A stretch of DNA of 8,683 nucleotides from Deltaproteobacteria bacterium (GTDB lineage Bacteria; Desulfobacterota; Desulfobacteria; Desulfobacterales; UBA11574). The DNA is taken from contig JAFDCA010000657.1 in assembly GCA_019313025.1 (NCBI GenBank), forward strand, positions 1-8,683, written 5' to 3'. Both the position numbers and the translations under genes were made by a program. Within the stretch, counting starts at the first letter, position 1. Every line of letters starts with the position of its first letter. Shown here one piece after another: positions 143-8,683 of the stretch. The notes beneath the pieces were generated by a model. That model ran no database searches and was not told the origin of the DNA. It saw nothing but the letters and a program-made list of their open reading frames with translations.

Positions 143-835
143 TTAACAGGTATGTTTCAATGCCCTTATAAGCGCAGCTTTATGAAATTCACCGGCCAGA
201 TGCACAGAACTTTTACCAGAGATTGGATCCCAGGCTGAGGGATCTGCCACACAAAAATATTGTACTTCAAGACCGATGCGTACGATGGCATCTTCCACAG
301 GAAGACCCTCAACTCGCGGTGCAGCCTCCCAGGTCGCTATGCAAGGAGCCCCGCGAACGACCTGAATGCTATCAATACGTCCACTGGAAACCTTTACGAC
401 AAATTCCGGCATTCCAAACATTTTTCCATAATCACCCAGGCAGACCTGCCGGGAGAGACCGCATCATGTGGGAGGTGTCAGAGTACCCTTGACCCTCAGC
501 TTTTTTCCGGAAGCCACGACCGGGATATTTTTATCACGACAGACAGCTGCAAGATCATGGGAAAGATCCGGGTGTTTTAAATAATCCAGAACCAGATCCG
601 CTTGAAAATTTCGAGGAATGTATTGCGTTGTATCGTCAATAATTGTGGGCAACGAATTGTTGATAGATATAATGTCCAAGGAAAAAAGGTTATTACCGTA
701 ACGCCGAATACCTTCTATTTTCTTTTCTCCACTGCCGTTCTGTTGAAAAACTAAAATTTTTTGGGTGTCGGCAGCAGACTTTTTAAGCGGTGTGTTTATT
801 TTAATGTTGTCTTCATACTCTAAATCTTTTTTCAT
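143..835 (-). CDS. DUF166-family protein, predicted selenoprotein (TGA at 464-466 read as Sec124)
   Basis: The reading frame runs from ATG at 835 to TAA at 143 (230 residues) with one internal TGA at 464-466. Residues 1-123 hold the family N-terminus (KILVFQQNGSGEKKIEG from about 26, then LVLDYLKHPDL). Residues 125-230 continue in the same frame with the conserved C-terminal part (FGMPEF at 140-145, RGAPC at 161-165, EVQYFC at 190-195, GKSSVHLAGEFH at 207-218). The TGA falls in PPT-U-CGL, where from memory relatives carry a Cys-Cys pair. A SECIS-like hairpin follows it directly. A ribosome site, GAGGA, lies 6 nt before the start and overlaps the stop of the upstream ABC-F gene, so the two are probably co-transcribed. 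Pfam (PF02593) links the family to thymidylate synthesis from early work on a methanogen protein; the bacterial role is unproven. The alternative is a pseudogene or sequencing error, which the intact frame and hairpin argue against. Confidence 0.85.
435..466 (-). promoter_or_regulatory. Putative bacterial SECIS element for Sec insertion
   Basis: On the minus-strand mRNA, UGA (466-464) is followed after 10 nt by CCCGGCAGGUCUGCCUGGG (453-435). This folds as CCC/GGG plus GGCA/UGCC with a GGUC loop and one bulged U at 438. Two more pairs (456-432, 455-433) can form below a U-U mismatch. The tip GCAGGUCUGC is the same decamer I recall at the tip of the E. coli fdhF SECIS, and it starts 15 nt after the UGA against 16 nt in fdhF. 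SelB is known to read the GU in that loop and a bulged U. Here the bulge is on the 3' side of the stem rather than the 5' side as in fdhF, which is a small departure from the model. Confidence 0.8.
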
Positions 836-844
836 GATATATCC

Positions 845-2719
845 TCAATCTTCAATATTCGATTCGAGCTGTTCGAGTTTTTTTTCAAAAATGGCCTTTT
901 GCTCGTCAAAAACGATGGTGGAGTGTTCAAGCTCTTCAAAAAGGTTATCGATGGCAGACTGGCAGCTATGGATGGAACGAGAGAGCAAACCGATCTTTTC
1001 GCCGTCACCGGCCTGAGAAGCCGTCAATAAATCAGCATTGAGTTCATTGAGCGCATTTTCGTGCCTCTCGATATGGTTTTCAATACGAAAAATCCGTTGT
1101 TCAAGGGGTTTAAGGACTCTGGACCGTTCAGTAACAAACTTGGAACGTATACGCCTTTTTTCTTTTTTGGTCAACTTAAAGTGAGAGCCTTTATTAGGTT
1201 CATCACCATTGAGGCATGCTTCCAAAGCCTCTGTTTCATCCGACCATCCATTTTTTTCCAGAAACCGCTGATAGCTCCCTTCAAAGACATCAACACGATG
1301 GTTTTGAAATACGATAAGACGCTCGGCGATTGCATGCAAGAACATTTCATTATGCGTCACCATAATGACCGTACCCTCAAAACTGTCGATGGCGGCAAGC
1401 ATCGCGTCACACGATTCCATATCCAGATGATTGGTGGGTTCGTCGAGAAGCAAGAGATTCAAAGGTGTCACAAGAAGTTTACCCAGGATCACCCTGCTTT
1501 TTTCTCCGCCGGAAAGAACACCGATCTTTTTTAACGCACTGTCACCTTCAAACATCATTGCACCGCATATATTTCGAGCCTGCTGACGGTCGACATCCGG
1601 GTGTGAAAAGAGAATTTCTTCTTCTATGGTTCTTGATCCATCAAGGTTTTTTATATTATTTTGTTCAAAATATCCCTGTTTAACCGCGGGATGGAGCGTG
1701 ATCTCACCATTCTGGGGTTTGATCACCCCTGACATAAGCTTTAGCAGTGTCGTTTTGCCTTTGCCGTTTTTACCGACAACACAGATACGTTCTTGTGCCT
1801 TTGCTGAAAAATTGAAGTTTTTGATCAACGGTTTTTCGGGGTCATATGAAAAGGAAACATTTCGAATATTCATTACGTGCTTTCTAGGAAAGGGACTGAG
1901 TCTAAAAGAAAAATCAAGTGTCTTTAGTCTTTCCAGCTTTTCTTTTTTTTCCATCCTGGACAGCGTCTTTATACGCGACTGTACCAAGTTCGCAAGCCTT
2001 GCTTTGGCTCTGAACCTGCTGATGAATAGTTTTATTTCCTTGCGGCGACGCTCGTCATTGAGACGGGTCTTTTCATATACTTCCTCGTCTTGGGCTAGTT
2101 GTGAATAATACTTTTCGGTATTTCCAACCAACTTTCTGATCTTTCGGCGATGGATGCCCAGGGTATGTGTGATGACATTATCCATCAGGCTTCTGTCATG
2201 GGTGATAAGCATCAACTCACGGGGCCACCGGATCAGAAAACGTTCAACCCAACGGATTGAAGTAATATCAAGATAATTGGTCGGCTCATCCAAAAGCAAA
2301 AGATCGGGCTCAGAGACGAGTTCTTTTGCCAGATTCAGACGAACCTGGAATCCTCCGGAGAATTCGTCTGGGTGTCGTTTAAAATCTTCTTTGGAAAATC
2401 CGAGGCCCGAGAGTATTTCTTCAACCTTCCAGTGCTGATCCTTTTCGTCATCACGAAGCGCGGTCATTCCCTCTGAAAGTAGGGTATCTTTTGTGAACCC
2501 GATCTCCTGGCGAACATAACCGATACGATAATGTTTTGGGATGATAATTACTCCTGAATCTGGAGATACCTCGCCGGTAATGAGTCGAAAAAGGGTTGTT
2601 TTTCCATGTCCGTTGCGACCAAGGAGACCCATTTTTTCTTTAGGATTCAGTTTAAAACTCACATTGTCAAAAAGCACTTCAGGATCATAGCTTTTTGTAA
2701 GATTTTCAACACTTATCAT
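845..2719 (-). CDS. ABC-F family ATP-binding protein (Uup/YheS-like)
   Basis: A 624-residue soluble protein with two ABC ATPase domains and no membrane segments, the layout of ABC-F translation factors, which bind the ribosome rather than transport. Domain 1 has Walker A GRNGHGKT (34-41), Q-loop Gln71, signature SGGFQ (121-125), Walker B ending in LLLLDEP with catalytic Glu145, and switch His174. A basic linker (about 195-265, rich in Arg and Lys) matches the P-site tRNA-interaction motif region. Domain 2 has GKNGKGKT (316-323), LSGGEK (402-407), LLLLDEP with Glu427, and His456. Residues from about 515 form a charged, coiled-coil-like C-terminal tail as in Uup. All catalytic residues are present. 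ATG 2719 is the first possible start because an in-frame TAG lies just upstream; no clear Shine-Dalgarno is visible. It is followed 9 nt later by the DUF166 gene. Which ABC-F subgroup it belongs to is not decided here. Confidence 0.93.
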   Translation of the reverse strand: MISVENLTKSYDPEVLFDNVSFKLNPKEKMGLLGRNGHGKTTLFRLITGEVSPDSGVIIIPKHYRIGYVRQEIGFTKDTLLSEGMTALRDDEKDQHWKVEEILSGLGFSKEDFKRHPDEFSGGFQVRLNLAKELVSEPDLLLLDEPTNYLDITSIRWVERFLIRWPRELMLITHDRSLMDNVITHTLGIHRRKIRKLVGNTEKYYSQLAQDEEVYEKTRLNDERRRKEIKLFISRFRAKARLANLVQSRIKTLSRMEKKEKLERLKTLDFSFRLSPFPRKHVMNIRNVSFSYDPEKPLIKNFNFSAKAQERICVVGKNGKGKTTLLKLMSGVIKPQNGEITLHPAVKQGYFEQNNIKNLDGSRTIEEEILFSHPDVDRQQARNICGAMMFEGDSALKKIGVLSGGEKSRVILGKLLVTPLNLLLLDEPTNHLDMESCDAMLAAIDSFEGTVIMVTHNEMFLHAIAERLIVFQNHRVDVFEGSYQRFLEKNGWSDETEALEACLNGDEPNKGSHFKLTKKEKRRIRSKFVTERSRVLKPLEQRIFRIENHIERHENALNELNADLLTASQAGDGEKIGLLSRSIHSCQSAIDNLFEELEHSTIVFDEQKAIFEKKLEQLESNIED

Positions 2720-3224: not shown

Positions 3225-3911
3225 ATGCTGAAACGTTTGTTAAATTTACGAATATTTCCTTATATCGGGCTTTTTATCATAAAGATCATATCATCAACTT
3301 ACAAGATCAGAATTATAAATCCTGAGATTGAAAGAGATATTTTAAAGAGAGGACAGATTCCGATCTATGCGTCGTGGCATCAGCGGTTTTTCCCGGGAAT
3401 AACCTTTCTCGCAAGCCGAAAGCCTATATCAATCATGATTAGCCAGAGCAGAGATGGAGAACTCATTTCCAGAATAGTTAACATCTTGGGATGGTATCCG
3501 GTGAGAGGTTCTTCATCAAAGGGGGGGCGTCACGCATTAAAGGAAATTAATAAACTCATTCATGAAGGATACAAGGTCGCTCATATTGTGGACGGCCCTA
3601 CCGGTCCTCTTGGAGTTGTTAAACCTGGTTTGCTTCTCATTGCCCAGGCTTCGGGAATGCCCATCGTCCCTTCCATTGCCTCTGCTGAAAAAAAATGGGT
3701 TTTCAATAGTTGGGACCAATTCATGGTGCCAAAACCTTTTTCACGTGTCATTTTAAGGTTCGTAGGTGGAATTTACATCCCCAGAGAATTGCGGGGATCT
3801 GATTTTGAGATAAAACGATCCTTTATTGAGGACATTCTAAAAGAAGCGTATATTGAAACAGATGCCATGTGGTCAAATCAGGAGGAGATCCGTCGATTGT
3901 TCAACACCTAA
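3225..3911 (+). CDS. DUF374 family lysophospholipid acyltransferase-like protein
   Basis: A 228-residue protein with the conserved blocks of the DUF374 branch of the lysophospholipid acyltransferase superfamily: YASWHQRF with the likely catalytic His52, SQSRDGE (73-79), RGSSSKGG (94-101), and DGPTGP (123-128) followed by PGLLLIAQASGMPIVPS. The family is thought to add acyl chains to envelope lipids at the inner face of the membrane, but the substrate here is unknown. The classical HX4D Asp is not at the expected place, as is usual for this branch. A hydrophobic stretch at about 10-24 may anchor it. The length is normal. The start ATG 3225 has only a weak GGA 7 nt upstream. Its TAA directly touches the stop of the convergent SprT-like gene, leaving no room for a terminator between them. 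Confidence 0.9.
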   Translation: MLKRLLNLRIFPYIGLFIIKIISSTYKIRIINPEIERDILKRGQIPIYASWHQRFFPGITFLASRKPISIMISQSRDGELISRIVNILGWYPVRGSSSKGGRHALKEINKLIHEGYKVAHIVDGPTGPLGVVKPGLLLIAQASGMPIVPSIASAEKKWVFNSWDQFMVPKPFSRVILRFVGGIYIPRELRGSDFEIKRSFIEDILKEAYIETDAMWSNQEEIRRLFNT

Positions 3912-4442
3912 CTAAGATTCTTCGTAGTAGTAGTTTTGGGGTCTGGATGAATAGGGGAAATTCAATAACGCTTTAGGGTTTATACTTCCGTATTCGGCGC
4001 ATGGGGGTTTTTTTTGAATGACTTTTGGCTTGATGTCAATATCCAGAAGTTTCGCGATTCTAATGACCTCTTCAATAAACCGTTTGTTATTGTGGCTGGA
4101 TTCACCTACCCATCCACCGGTCTGATGAACCCTTTGGTGAATCATCTCATGCAAAAGAACATCTCGAACCTTTCTTTTATTTAAAAGGCGAGGTTCCCAC
4201 ATGAAATCGGTGGTTGGATAGACAGGGCGCATTAAAGTCTTATGTAAAACGATGAGATTTTCATCTGGAGAATAATATCCAAGACTTCTGTCTTGAGGTG
4301 TTGACCCCCAAATGATCTCACCGGCCCTGTTTTCTCCATAGAAAAAAGAATCATTCAATTTTTTCCATTCATCGAAAATCCATGCGCCGAAATTTCCAAA
4401 AACTTCTATGGCGTTAATTTTCAATTCTTCAAATGTCGACAT
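3912..4442 (-). CDS. SprT-like zinc metalloprotein
   Basis: A 176-residue protein when started at ATG 4442. It contains HEMIH (98-102), the HExxH zinc-binding and catalytic motif, in the setting VRDVLLHEMIHQ. SHNNKRF follows 14 residues later, where His117 is the likely third zinc ligand, as in the SprT/Spartan domain. The C-terminal four-Cys zinc ribbon of E. coli SprT is missing; only one Cys (PPCAEYG) remains. The frame is open upstream to ATG 4574, but that extension overlaps the hydrolase gene in another frame, so the inner start 13 nt after the hydrolase stop is preferred; it has no clear ribosome site and may depend on translational coupling. It is the last gene of the mltD-hydrolase-SprT operon. 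Spartan relatives cut DNA-crosslinked proteins; whether this one does is unknown. Confidence 0.85.
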   Translation of the reverse strand: MSTFEELKINAIEVFGNFGAWIFDEWKKLNDSFFYGENRAGEIIWGSTPQDRSLGYYSPDENLIVLHKTLMRPVYPTTDFMWEPRLLNKRKVRDVLLHEMIHQRVHQTGGWVGESSHNNKRFIEEVIRIAKLLDIDIKPKVIQKKPPCAEYGSINPKALLNFPYSSRPQNYYYEES

Positions 4443-4455
4443 GACAACGTAATTT

Positions 4456-5115
4456 TTACTCAAGAATAAAGTCGGTGATGTATGGATTATCTTCCATCTC
4501 TCTGCCGATGGTGGATGACGGACTTTCCCCATAATCATGCCCCGGCCAGATGATGGTTTGTTTTGGAAGTACAATCAGTTTTTTCTCAATGGATTCAATA
4601 AGTGTATTCAGTGAGCCGCCGATTAAATCGGTTCTTCCTGCTGCGCCGACAAAGAGGGTATCGCCGGTAAAGAGATTCCCACCCGTCAGATAGCAGACAG
4701 AGCCCAGAGTATGTCCGGGTGTGTGTATAACCTCAATATTGAGCGTTCCCACTTTAAGTATATCTCCATCTTTCAATTTAATATCTACAGAATTAGGCGG
4801 GAGCAGTCCCAATTCATGAGAAGATTTCTCCCTGACAATAGGGTCGTTAAAAAATCTGTCATCGGATTCATGCATGCATACAGGGATTTTAAGAAGGTTT
4901 TTCAACTTTTGGTTTCCCAAAACATGATCGGCATGACCGTGGGTATTCAGGATGTATTTGACACGAAGATTTCTTGTTTCAATCAAGGTCAGCAGTTTGT
5001 CTTCATCTCCGGCAGGATCAATGATAACTGCATCGCAGCTTTTGGGGCAGGCCACCAGATATGTCAGAACCTTAAAAGGTTCTACGGGGATCTGTTTTAT
5101 AATTATTTTAATCAA
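4456..5115 (-). CDS. Metallo-beta-lactamase-fold hydrolase, glyoxalase II-like
   Basis: A 219-residue protein with every metal ligand of the glyoxalase II/ETHE1-type fold: THGHADH (58-64: His59, His61, Asp63, His64), His135 in HTPGHTLGS, Asp152 in FTGDTLF, and His193 in PGHDYG. This predicts a two-metal cytosolic thioester hydrolase, for example on hydroxyacyl-glutathione or another low-molecular-weight thiol, or an ETHE1-like sulfur enzyme. The C-terminal glutathione-binding domain of classical GloB is absent, as in the short MBL hydrolases common in anaerobes, so the substrate is open. The start is TTG at 5115, 6 nt after the stop of mltD. No ATG lies in the conserved N-terminal part (KQIPVEPFKVLTY), so the non-ATG start is needed. 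Translational coupling to mltD is likely. Confidence 0.92.
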   Translation of the reverse strand: MIKIIIKQIPVEPFKVLTYLVACPKSCDAVIIDPAGDEDKLLTLIETRNLRVKYILNTHGHADHVLGNQKLKNLLKIPVCMHESDDRFFNDPIVREKSSHELGLLPPNSVDIKLKDGDILKVGTLNIEVIHTPGHTLGSVCYLTGGNLFTGDTLFVGAAGRTDLIGGSLNTLIESIEKKLIVLPKQTIIWPGHDYGESPSSTIGREMEDNPYITDFILE

Positions 5116-5121
5116 ATTCGG

Positions 5122-7014
5122 CTATTCTATGAATAGTTTTTGTCCTGGATATATTTTGCAATTGGGTGTCAAAAGATTGATGCGCAGAAATCGTTCAAGG
5201 GGCATATTATGAAGTTGTGCGATATCGAAAGGACTATCACCGCGTTTAACCATATATACTTTTAGATTCCCAACCTCTATTTTTTCATCCTTGTACCCGG
5301 GTATCTTTAAAACCTGGCCGATATGAAGTTGCGTTGTTTGCAAGTTATTTAAACTCTGGATCTTTTTGGTGGTTGTGCCGTATCGATTGGCGATGTTCCA
5401 GAGTGAATCCCCACTTTTTACAACATGGGTGGACGGGAGTATAAAGTCTTTGCTTCGGTCTATTTTCGGCCTATACGGCATTGTACCCCTTTGTGGTATT
5501 TTGAGTTTTTTGCCCGCAACGATATAGCCCGATCTGCTCAAGTTGTTCGCGTGCATAATTTTTCTTACGCTGGTACGGTATCGTCTGGCAATGGTGGAAA
5601 GGCTTTCGCCGGGCCTTATCCGATGATAGACATAGGCAGGTTGAGGCGGGTACGACACCGGTATGTTATCGAGAGTTGCCAGCAGAACTTCACTTTTTCC
5701 CGGAGGAACTCTAAGGGGATAATTGTCTTGAGGAAGTATACGGTAACGAAGCTCAGGATTCAGTTCTCTAAGGGTATTTTCAGGAACACCGATTTCTGTG
5801 GCAATATTTTTCAGATGGATCTGTTTTGAAACCATTACGTTCTCATATTCCAGCGGTTCATCAACAGAGATGGCATTGAGTCCGTATTTTTCCGGATTCT
5901 TAATAATAAAAAGAGCCGCCATAAAGCGGGGAACGTATCGAGCCGTTTCCCGAGGAAGGCGCTCGTAAAGATCCCAAAAATTGTCAAGGTAGTTTATGTT
6001 CTGAGATCGAATGACTCTGAGGACCTGTCCTTCACCACAATTATAAGCTGCCAAGACCGTTGACCAGTCACCAAAAATTTGATGCAGTTCCTTCAAATAT
6101 GCAATTGCAGCCTCAGTTGATTTGACCGGATCGATTCTTTCATCGATGTATTTGTCGCGTTTGAGACCAAATTTATATCCGGTTGAGGGGATGAACTGCC
6201 AGAGTCCAAGTGCTCTGGCCCTTGAAAGCGCATTGACCTTGAATCCGCTTTCAATTAACGGAAGCCATGATAGTTCAACCGGCATACCGGCTGCTTTGAG
6301 TGCTGAAACGATCTGCGGACGATATTTTCCCGAACGTTTATATGCATTGATGAAAAAATTTTTTTCACCGTATTTTGTAAAGTGATTAATTTCAAGCTCA
6401 ACATGCTTGTTCATCACCAGAGGAATGGCATTATGATTGCCGTTTACAACAATATTACGCGATGCGTAAATTTCAAGAATGCGTTTAGAAATCATAAAAC
6501 GCAGATCTTCTTTTTGTTGTATGAGTTTAGGGTTATTGGTCGTATCGGTTGTCAAGATCAAGGCATAAGCATGGTCCAGTGCTTCAAGGGCATTTTCAAG
6601 CTCCCCTTTTTGCCAAAAATCTTGAGAGGCTTGACAAAAATCGAGAGCTTCATCAAGGATGGATTGTATTTTTTCACTTTGATCAGAATCTTCTGATTGA
6701 TGATTCTGACTGTTTGTTTGATGGCTAAAACCCGATGAATTTTCAGGATTTTCCGGACTGACAGGACCCGCAAGAGAAGTCTTTTGATTTTCAGTGTCGG
6801 CTTTTTCGGATAATTCTAAAGGATCGGAGGATTCTTTTGGGGATGAAATATCAGAAACGACGTTGTTGTTCATTGTCCCAGGATCAATAGAACTTTCTTC
6901 GTTCGAAAAAAAAGCCGTTTCCGGTGATACGGGATTTTTGTGAAGATTCTGTGCGCAGCCGAAAAAGAGCAAAAACATGAACATAGGTAAAATAATAACT
7001 CGTGAATTTATCAA
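5122..7014 (-). CDS. mltD: Membrane-bound lytic murein transglycosylase D with three LysM domains
   Basis: A 630-residue outer-membrane lipoprotein that cleaves peptidoglycan glycan strands. Numbered from TTG 7014: a short signal peptide with lipobox LFFGC (Cys20); a Ser/Asn/Glu-rich low-complexity linker to about 115; a helical region with LENALEALDHAYALIL; an SLT catalytic domain (about 240-345) with LIESGF (Glu255 catalytic), GLWQFIPSTG and AAYNCGEG; then LysM repeats at about 461-507, 529-572 and 585-629 that bind peptidoglycan. The third LysM ends two residues from the C-terminus. The frame is open to another TTG at 7032, but only the TTG at 7014 has a ribosome site (GGAG, 7 nt upstream) and gives a normal lipoprotein signal length. 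It is the first gene of a three-gene operon, preceded by a sigma70-like promoter. Confidence 0.94.
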   Translation of the reverse strand: MINSRVIILPMFMFLLFFGCAQNLHKNPVSPETAFFSNEESSIDPGTMNNNVVSDISSPKESSDPLELSEKADTENQKTSLAGPVSPENPENSSGFSHQTNSQNHQSEDSDQSEKIQSILDEALDFCQASQDFWQKGELENALEALDHAYALILTTDTTNNPKLIQQKEDLRFMISKRILEIYASRNIVVNGNHNAIPLVMNKHVELEINHFTKYGEKNFFINAYKRSGKYRPQIVSALKAAGMPVELSWLPLIESGFKVNALSRARALGLWQFIPSTGYKFGLKRDKYIDERIDPVKSTEAAIAYLKELHQIFGDWSTVLAAYNCGEGQVLRVIRSQNINYLDNFWDLYERLPRETARYVPRFMAALFIIKNPEKYGLNAISVDEPLEYENVMVSKQIHLKNIATEIGVPENTLRELNPELRYRILPQDNYPLRVPPGKSEVLLATLDNIPVSYPPQPAYVYHRIRPGESLSTIARRYRTSVRKIMHANNLSRSGYIVAGKKLKIPQRGTMPYRPKIDRSKDFILPSTHVVKSGDSLWNIANRYGTTTKKIQSLNNLQTTQLHIGQVLKIPGYKDEKIEVGNLKVYMVKRGDSPFDIAQLHNMPLERFLRINLLTPNCKIYPGQKLFIE

Positions 7015-7089
7015 ATTAATACTCCGATTCAATATATCAAAGGATTACAATTAAAACGCATCAAGACAATTTTTATGGTTTGATGTCCG

Positions 7090-7588: not shown

Positions 7589-7664
7589 GCCAGAGTAGCT
7601 CAGTTGGTAGAGCGCCTCACTTGTAATGAGGATGTCGCGGGTTCAACTCCTGTCTCTGGCTCCA
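7589..7664 (+). tRNA. tRNA-Thr (anticodon TGT)
   Basis: A 76-nt cloverleaf with acceptor stem GCCAGAG/CTCTGGC, D-arm AGCTCAGTTGGTAGAGC, anticodon stem CCTCA/TGAGG with loop CTTGTAA (anticodon TGT at 7622-7624), T-loop GTTCAACTC, discriminator T and an encoded CCA. It is the first gene of the tRNA-tuf cluster. Confidence 0.97.
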
Positions 7665-7683
7665 TATATGATAATATAATTCA

Positions 7684-7768
7684 GGTGGGGTTCCCGAGTG
7701 GTCAAAGGGAACAGACTGTAAATCTGTCGGCGAAGCCTTCGGAGGTTCAAATCCTCCCCCCACCACCA
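7684..7768 (+). tRNA. tRNA-Tyr (anticodon GTA)
   Basis: An 85-nt class II tRNA with a long variable arm (CGGCGAAGCCTTCGG region), acceptor stem GGTGGGG/CCCCACC, anticodon loop CTGTAAA (anticodon GTA at 7718-7720), T-loop GGTTCAAATCC, discriminator A and an encoded CCA. It lies 19 nt after tRNA-Thr. Confidence 0.97.
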
Positions 7769-7933
7769 GCCTCAAAGTAGGTCGTATGTAGGAGATTTCG
7801 GTTGATTTAGCGAAATCGACAGAGACTACATGGCTTCTTTCATAAATCTATACTACACATTTTGAGGACACTTATTTTTTCAAAATCATCATTAAACAAG
7901 AGGTTCTATACAGGGTATCTTTATGTTATATGA
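7769..7933 (+). other. Long tRNA-Tyr to tRNA-Gly spacer with an alternative hairpin
   Basis: The spacer is 165 nt, against 19 and 54 nt for the other two tRNA gaps. It contains ATGTAG (7786-7791) facing CTACAT (7826-7831). Between them two exclusive inner stems are possible: GATTTCG (7794-7800) with CGAAATC (7811-7817), or GTTGATTT (7801-7808) with AAATCGAC (7813-7820) including one G-U pair. No T run follows, so it is not a standard terminator. It may be an RNA processing site or an unrecognised small RNA. Confidence 0.5.
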
Positions 7934-8009
7934 GCGGGAGTAGCTCAGTTGGTAGAGCTCTAGCCTTCCAAGCTGGATGTAGCGAGTTCGAGTCTCGTCT
8001 CCCGCTCCA
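7934..8009 (+). tRNA. tRNA-Gly (anticodon TCC)
   Basis: A 76-nt cloverleaf with acceptor stem GCGGGAG/CTCCCGC, anticodon loop CTTCCAA (anticodon TCC at 7967-7969), T-loop GTTCGAGTC, discriminator T and an encoded CCA. Confidence 0.97.
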
Positions 8010-8063
8010 AATTAAAAATAGACTGCATTAACAATTTTCCATACAGCATCATAAGACATAATT

Positions 8064-8140
8064 GCCCACGTAGCTCAGTCGGTAGAGCGCTTCCTTGGTA
8101 AGGAAGAGGTTCACCGGTTCAATCCCGGTCGTGGGCTCCA
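8064..8140 (+). tRNA. tRNA-Thr (anticodon GGT)
   Basis: A 77-nt cloverleaf with acceptor stem GCCCACG/CGTGGGC, anticodon stem CTTCC/GGAAG with loop TTGGTAA (anticodon GGT at 8097-8099), T-loop GTTCAATCC, discriminator T and an encoded CCA. It is the last tRNA before tuf and the second threonine tRNA of the cluster, reading ACC and ACU codons while the first reads ACA and ACG. Confidence 0.96.
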
Positions 8141-8237
8141 TGATTTCAGACAATAGGGCGCAGAGGGGAAAATTTTGAAGAGGATGAAATTGTTTAAAGC
8201 CAAAGCACCTTGCTAAAAATCAATTCAAACAAAGTAT

Positions 8238-8243
8238 GGGAGG
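8238..8243 (+). promoter_or_regulatory. Ribosome binding site of tuf
   Basis: GGGAGG, a strong Shine-Dalgarno match, lies 9 nt before the ATG of tuf and fixes that start. Confidence 0.8.
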
Positions 8244-8252
8244 ATTTCGAAG

Positions 8253-8683
8253 ATGGGTAAGGTAAAGTTTGAGAGGACCAAGCCGCATGTAAATGTCGGA
8301 ACGATTGGTCATATCGATCACGGCAAGACGACTTTGACGGCGGCGATAACGAAGCATATGGGTATGAAGGGGATGGCGGAGTTTGTTCCATTTGATCAGA
8401 TAGACAAGGCCCCTGAGGAGAAGGAGCGAGGAATAACCATAGCGACGGCGCATGTTGAGTATGAGACGGCGAATCGTCATTATGCACATGTGGATTGTCC
8501 GGGTCATGCGGATTACATTAAGAACATGATAACGGGTGCGGCGCAGATGGACGGTGCCATTTTGGTTGTTGGGGCCGATGATGGTCCGATGCCTCAGACA
8601 CGTGAGCACATATTGTTGGCGCGTCAGGTGGGGGTTCCCCAGATGGTTGTATTTTTAAACAAGTGTGACATGGTGGATGATGA
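8253..8683 (+). CDS. tuf: Translation elongation factor Tu (5' part, cut by the window end)
   Basis: The first 143 codons of EF-Tu, the GTPase that carries aminoacyl-tRNA to the ribosome. The P-loop GHIDHGKT (19-26), switch I region [17 protein letters not shown]3 motif DCPGH in switch II and G4 motif NKCD are all intact; domains 2 and 3 lie beyond the window. The start ATG 8253 gives the family N-terminus [20 protein letters not shown], and GGGAGG lies 9 nt upstream (8238-8243). It lies 112 nt after tRNA-Thr with no terminator between, so it is probably co-transcribed with the four tRNAs, as tufB is in E. coli. In related bacteria rpmG, tRNA-Trp, secE and nusG often come next; that is an expectation and cannot be seen here. 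Confidence 0.97.

Follow-up and report, generated by a model that had tools for sequence, protein, structure and literature searches.

Does the TGA codon that interrupts a DUF166 family gene in the 8,683-nucleotide stretch of DNA analyzed here (hereafter, the window) terminate the protein, or is it read as selenocysteine (Sec)? The gene, dfsP, and the features that bear on this question all lie on the minus strand:

143..835, minus strand: dfsP, predicted selenoprotein gene of the DUF166 family; it encodes 230 residues, the putative Sec being residue 124; the true stop is the TAA at 143-145
464..466, minus strand: TGA codon, very probably read as selenocysteine, residue 124; TGA is present in 68 of 80 relatives and recurs in the phylum sample
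461..463, minus strand: TGC codon, invariant Cys125 adjoining the putative Sec; a Cys codon in all 80 loci, and Cys in 120 of the 120 DfsP proteins among the matches listed and in 101 of 101 wider DUF166 proteins
435..453, minus strand: putative SECIS hairpin; 5' arm 453-448, loop 447-442 (GG at 446-445), 3' arm 441-435
845..2719, minus strand: gene for an ABC-F ATPase, upstream of dfsP and separated from it by 9 bases

A single reading frame with an internal TGA

The frame that runs from 835 to 143 opens with ATG and closes with TAA, and its sole in-frame stop is the TGA at 464-466. With the closing stop counted, the frame has 231 codons, of which this TGA is number 124, and the next codon is TGC. 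The initial annotation had described an otherwise complete DUF166 protein that is split, with no change of frame, by a stop located directly before a Cys, with family-typical blocks in both halves, and all of this is borne out. One NCBIfam model, NF041372, aligns to both halves without a change of frame (profile positions 1-99 for the first and 101-203 for the second). The joined read-through protein reaches 327.6 bits, where the cut-off is 200, with residues 25-227 aligned to positions 1-203 of the 203 in the profile. The Pfam domain PF02593 (DUF166) likewise covers both sides of the TGA, with 137.2 bits against the gathering cut-off of 24.4. The features of NF041372 membership are thus present in the window gene, namely, a score above the cut-off across the whole model and a TGA (Sec) before the invariant Cys. 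The expectation that gene callers would break the gene in two and miss its core also proved accurate: the ORF finder produced exactly two ORFs, 464-835 (123 amino acids) and 143-421 (92 amino acids), the second of which begins 43 bases beyond the TGA and leaves out the conserved core that surrounds the Sec position.

It is very probable that one full-length DfsP is made and that UGA codon 124 is read as selenocysteine, as originally suggested, because TGA and Cys codons exchange at this position, a covarying SECIS follows the TGA and is missing from the Cys forms, and sel genes are present in the genomes of relatives. Under this reading, the UGA would be decoded by SelB with tRNA-Sec, and decoding would be guided by a SECIS hairpin that is located inside the coding sequence and starts 10 bases past the UGA. 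The opposite possibility, that translation really ends at the UGA and gives two distinct polypeptides or a short form under regulation, agrees with the output of the ORF finder, and SECIS-dependent readthrough is generally incomplete, so that some short product is likely. It is nevertheless highly improbable as the main account of the gene because the stop falls inside one conserved domain and the second ORF, starting as far downstream as it does, would be a protein devoid of that core.

Codon 124 among the relatives of dfsP

The selenocysteine reading can be assessed by comparison of codon 124 across related loci. Among the best 80 of 272 loci, those most similar to the query, codon 124 is TGA in 68, TGC in 10 and TGT in two, with no TAA, TAG or TGG, and codon 125 encodes Cys in all 80. 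L001, the fetched locus closest to the window gene (77% identity), is likewise a TGA form. Alignment of homologs across this position, the check proposed with the initial annotation, accordingly brings out both Cys codons (12/80) and other TGA-containing relatives (68/80). The phylum of the nearest relative was sampled evenly, and of the 297 genomes taken, 61 contain a match and 40 a match over the cut-off, at 41 places; 19 of these 41 members carry exactly one internal stop, which is always TGA, and 22 have no internal stop, so that none contains TAA or TAG, these counts not being fully independent of those for the 80 loci because at least four genomes of the phylum sample (G001, G008, G032 and G033) also carry some of the 80 loci. 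Given the 19 to 22 split in the phylum sample and the TGA/Cys split in the 80 loci, the Sec and Cys forms of DfsP are both common.

Annotated proteins present a similar picture. Among the matches listed (120 of 817 homologues, 39 of the 120 being included in the alignment A1), position 124 is Cys in 114 and Trp in six, and position 125 is Cys in all 120, so that the Cys-Cys pair that had been attributed to relatives is correct within DfsP. A nonsense mutation or a sequencing error within an ordinary Cys-Cys DUF166 gene could, in principle, account for the window sequence, given that 12 of the 80 relatives have a Cys codon and that a single base change turns such a codon into TGA. This explanation has very little in its favor once the relatives are taken into account, however, because many distinct assemblies share the same TGA, which is found in 68 of the 80 loci, because neither TAA nor TAG ever occupies this codon, and because the hairpin that follows the TGA is conserved in the TGA forms only. 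The least credible alternative is that UGA is read as tryptophan under a changed code: Trp does occupy the site in six of the 120 proteins among the matches listed (P0002, P0003, P0010, P0011, P0043 and P0072), but wherever the 80 loci lack TGA they have a Cys codon and in no case TGG, and P0003 is identical, letter for letter around the site, to the TGA-containing locus L008 except for Trp in place of the stop, so that the Trp rows probably stem from a TGA translated with a different code, which fits code 4.

A quick tree, built without the Sec codon and the sequence that follows it, pairs the window with L001 (support 94) and places the two inside a set of ten Sec rows (support 97). The same tree requires at least seven changes between Sec and Cys, three of which are forced by well-supported branches. 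Two forms can coexist in one genome: the record LT984854 contains a Sec form (L044) along with a Cys form (L059), and Desulfoferrobacter suflitae has two Sec forms (L026 and L052). In viral contigs, 56 stretches fitted a pattern and none of these encoded a relative.

The hairpin after the TGA and the selenocysteine machinery

With the U of the UGA numbered 1, positions 14-19 of the candidate SECIS pair with positions 26-31, and the loop GG is at 21-22; in the minimum-energy fold of the window sequence, one U (438) is bulged. The loop GG is retained in all 69 TGA sequences (window included), compared with two of the 12 Cys sequences. Covariation was evaluated with these 69 TGA sequences, which collapse into 65 distinct rows, against 500 shuffles. 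In the TGA rows, 93.8% of the cells are paired and the covariation score is 0.260, compared with 0.135 after shuffling, a value that none of the 500 shuffles attains, and versions of the stem that are slid along the same rows score 0.018-0.097, with 15.9-68.7% of the cells paired. The pair 15-30, whose compensating changes fall at silent sites because both of its sides are third codon positions, is CG in 39 rows, AU in 19, GC in two, GU in one, and other or unpaired in four. Two of the five covariation measures are no better than shuffles in the TGA rows; the pairs in which both sides changed number two, a count reached by 486 of the 500 shuffles, and the further pair types number seven, reached by 47 of the 500. 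All six pairs of the stem are standard in 43 of the 69 TGA sequences, and C16 is set against U29 in 19 of the 69, the window among them, in whose fold this U is the one that bulges.

In the 12 Cys sequences, 54.5% of the cells are paired, covariation is not above that of the shuffles (165 of 500 are as high), and the stem slid by one column scores 0.258, higher than the stem itself (0.109). The minimum free energy of the window hairpin is −11.8 and −12.1 kcal/mol for two shorter stretches and −14.8 kcal/mol for the longest one, but taken alone the hairpin does not exceed shuffled sequence in stability (z of −0.30, 0.26 and −0.24). The case for the hairpin is therefore made by covariation and by its absence from the Cys forms, not by energy. 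The bacterial SECIS model given in the available part of PMC13188914 specifies a G within the first two loop positions, a spacing of 16-37 nucleotides and a minimum free energy of −7.5 or lower, and the window hairpin agrees with that description in loop G, spacing and energy. At the gathering thresholds, Rfam models identify four tRNAs only in the window; these (tRNA-Thr, tRNA-Tyr, tRNA-Gly and tRNA-Thr) and, after them, an EF-Tu gene that is cut by the end of the window occupy 7589-8683 on the plus strand.

The genes for selenocysteine insertion were sought in the genomes that host the relatives. These searches covered 46 of the 80 loci and then 43, in 43 genomes; L059 shares its record with L044, and the genome of L008 lies outside the set. 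Over the cut-off, selB was detected in 37 of the 43 genomes, tRNA-Sec in 39 and selA in 39, and none of the genomes lacks all three. Many of the genomes are drafts, and the individual genes did not pass the cut-off in six of the 43 for selB (G002, G007, G013, G018, G019 and G031), in four for tRNA-Sec (G011, G012, G020 and G021) and in four for selA (G013, G018, G020 and G043). The records of G011 and G012 are titled chromosome, yet contain no tRNA-Sec over the cut-off under the stricter filters that were used. Among 14 control genomes, selB was found over the cut-off in two, tRNA-Sec in five and selA in one, so that a weak match to tRNA-Sec alone proves little. The genome of the nearest relative L001 (G001) encodes the complete set, with 616 bits for selA, 357 for selB, 75.4 for tRNA-Sec and 369.8 for selD, which itself carries one TGA; selD is over the cut-off in four of the six genomes searched for it.

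Taken at the level of sequence, these comparisons establish that the UGA is conserved, that it exchanges with Cys and that the hairpin is under selection; that Sec is actually inserted into DfsP is what we infer from them.

DfsP within the DUF166 family

The window gene had been put forward as a member of an undescribed selenoprotein family, and this part of the initial annotation does not hold. NF041372 bears the name 'DUF166 family (seleno)protein DfsP', and two reviews, in their available parts, list DUF166 as a selenoprotein. In PMC9312934, the DUF166 domain-containing protein is listed as a selenoprotein with reference 63, Zhang and Gladyshev 2007, a study on the delta symbiont of Olavius algarvensis that is the credited source for the DUF166 selenoprotein in both reviews; PMC13188914 lists DUF166 with NF041372, gives MDJ0831378.1 as an example and, in the part available, provides no Sec motif. 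The name DfsP is absent from the available parts of PMC9312934 and PMC13188914, and among the literature matches listed, it is not used for this protein. The window gene adds one more member to a selenoprotein family that has already been described, and the find is an ordinary one, since both this family and the Sec form of it are on record. The gene resembles the other NF041372 members in the match to the whole model and in the Sec or Cys that precedes the invariant Cys, and nothing was found that sets this copy apart from them. By the family listing in the available parts of the reviews, it belongs to the same Pfam family as the selenoprotein of the Olavius algarvensis symbiont.

Five residues, Cys125, Cys165, Cys195, His212 and His218, are invariant in all 81 DfsP rows. 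Cys99 is Cys in 78 of the rows and Ala in three, and is Cys in all 120 DfsP proteins among the matches listed (of 817); its candidacy as an obligate partner of Sec124 is weakened by the three Ala, all of which occur among the 69 Sec forms. The wider DUF166 set (101 of the 108 proteins from a second search, seven of fewer than 215 residues having been dropped) shares the PF02593 domain, Cys125, Cys165 and a Cys at alignment position 196, the three Cys being present in 101 of 101 proteins, and His212 in 99; by contrast, position 124 is Phe in 87 and Leu in 14, and Cys99 and His218 are found in none of the 101 in the same alignment. Cys195 of DfsP and Cys196 of the wider set, one column apart in the alignment, probably correspond to the same residue. 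Position 124 of the wider proteins is neither Sec nor Cys, while the Cys after it never varies, so that the Sec/Cys site seems to have been added in the DfsP branch, next to an older set of Cys and His residues. COG1810 is, we assume, the same family as DUF166 (PF02593). In the available part of PMC1852104, COG1810 is listed for methanogens and Archaeoglobus. A number of DUF166 homologues are named thymidylate synthase by one source; nothing in the present analysis backs that name.

The pattern of conservation suggests that DfsP could be a metalloprotein or a redox protein, with Sec124 placed next to the older invariant Cys125, Cys165, Cys195 and His212. Cys125, Cys165, Cys195/196 and His212 might together make up a site for a metal or an Fe-S cluster, and Sec124 might either tune this putative site or perform redox chemistry beside it. 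Fold searches with DfsP gave no firm match. There is no single gene context that is common to all 81 dfsP loci, with formate dehydrogenase or HdrA found in a subset. In six of the 81 loci (L067, L068, L069, L072, L076 and L079), dfsP lies downstream of, and on the same strand as, a molybdopterin gene with one in-frame TGA; in L076, the pieces of this gene match the formate dehydrogenase alpha subunit at profile positions 1-128 and 130-671, with the TGA at 129. The Cys form L059 has HdrA2 as the frame upstream of dfsP. Three proteins of the wider family (P0180-P0182) join DUF166 to a 2Fe-2S thioredoxin-like domain of the NuoE type, according to precomputed domains that were confirmed for P0180. 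The fusion and the formate dehydrogenase and HdrA neighbors are weak hints of a part in Fe-S electron transfer. It is conceivable, if rather unlikely, that DUF166 is an old metal- or redox-center protein working for Fe-S oxidoreductase complexes (formate dehydrogenase and heterodisulfide reductase, for example), and that DfsP is a selenium-tuned version, with Sec/Cys added beside a Cys ligand.

In the lineage of the window, by contrast, it is the ABC-F gene that lies upstream of dfsP. This gene is perhaps co-transcribed with dfsP, and DNA similarity spans both genes in L001, L003, L004 and L015. The ORF cluster that includes the ABC-F gene of the window occurs in 19 of the 81 loci, with 17 of the 21 ORFs in the cluster lying on the same strand as dfsP, a count to be read with the qualification that many loci end early and that the cluster may include other ABC ATPases. 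This neighbor was considered as a clue to function and set aside, as the ABC-F cluster suggests no redox role. Two genes are ordinary, one for a DUF374 protein (3225-3911, plus strand) and one for a lytic transglycosylase with LysM domains (5122-7032, minus strand). An ORF at 3912-4574 on the minus strand contains an HEMIH motif and is zinc-protease-like by eye; it overlaps a metallo-beta-lactamase-fold gene (4456-5115) and has no Pfam match at 1e-5 and no NCBIfam match at 1e-4.

The covariation of the putative SECIS, together with the absence of the hairpin from the Cys forms, backs a selenoprotein family that the available parts of the reviews list without a Sec motif. The dfsP gene also illustrates how a selenoprotein gene becomes two ORFs, and some of its relatives are probably mistranslated with Trp in some databases. 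For a family that is still uncharacterized, the apparently older Cys/His set, joined by a Sec/Cys site that seems to be specific to one branch, would provide a testable starting point.
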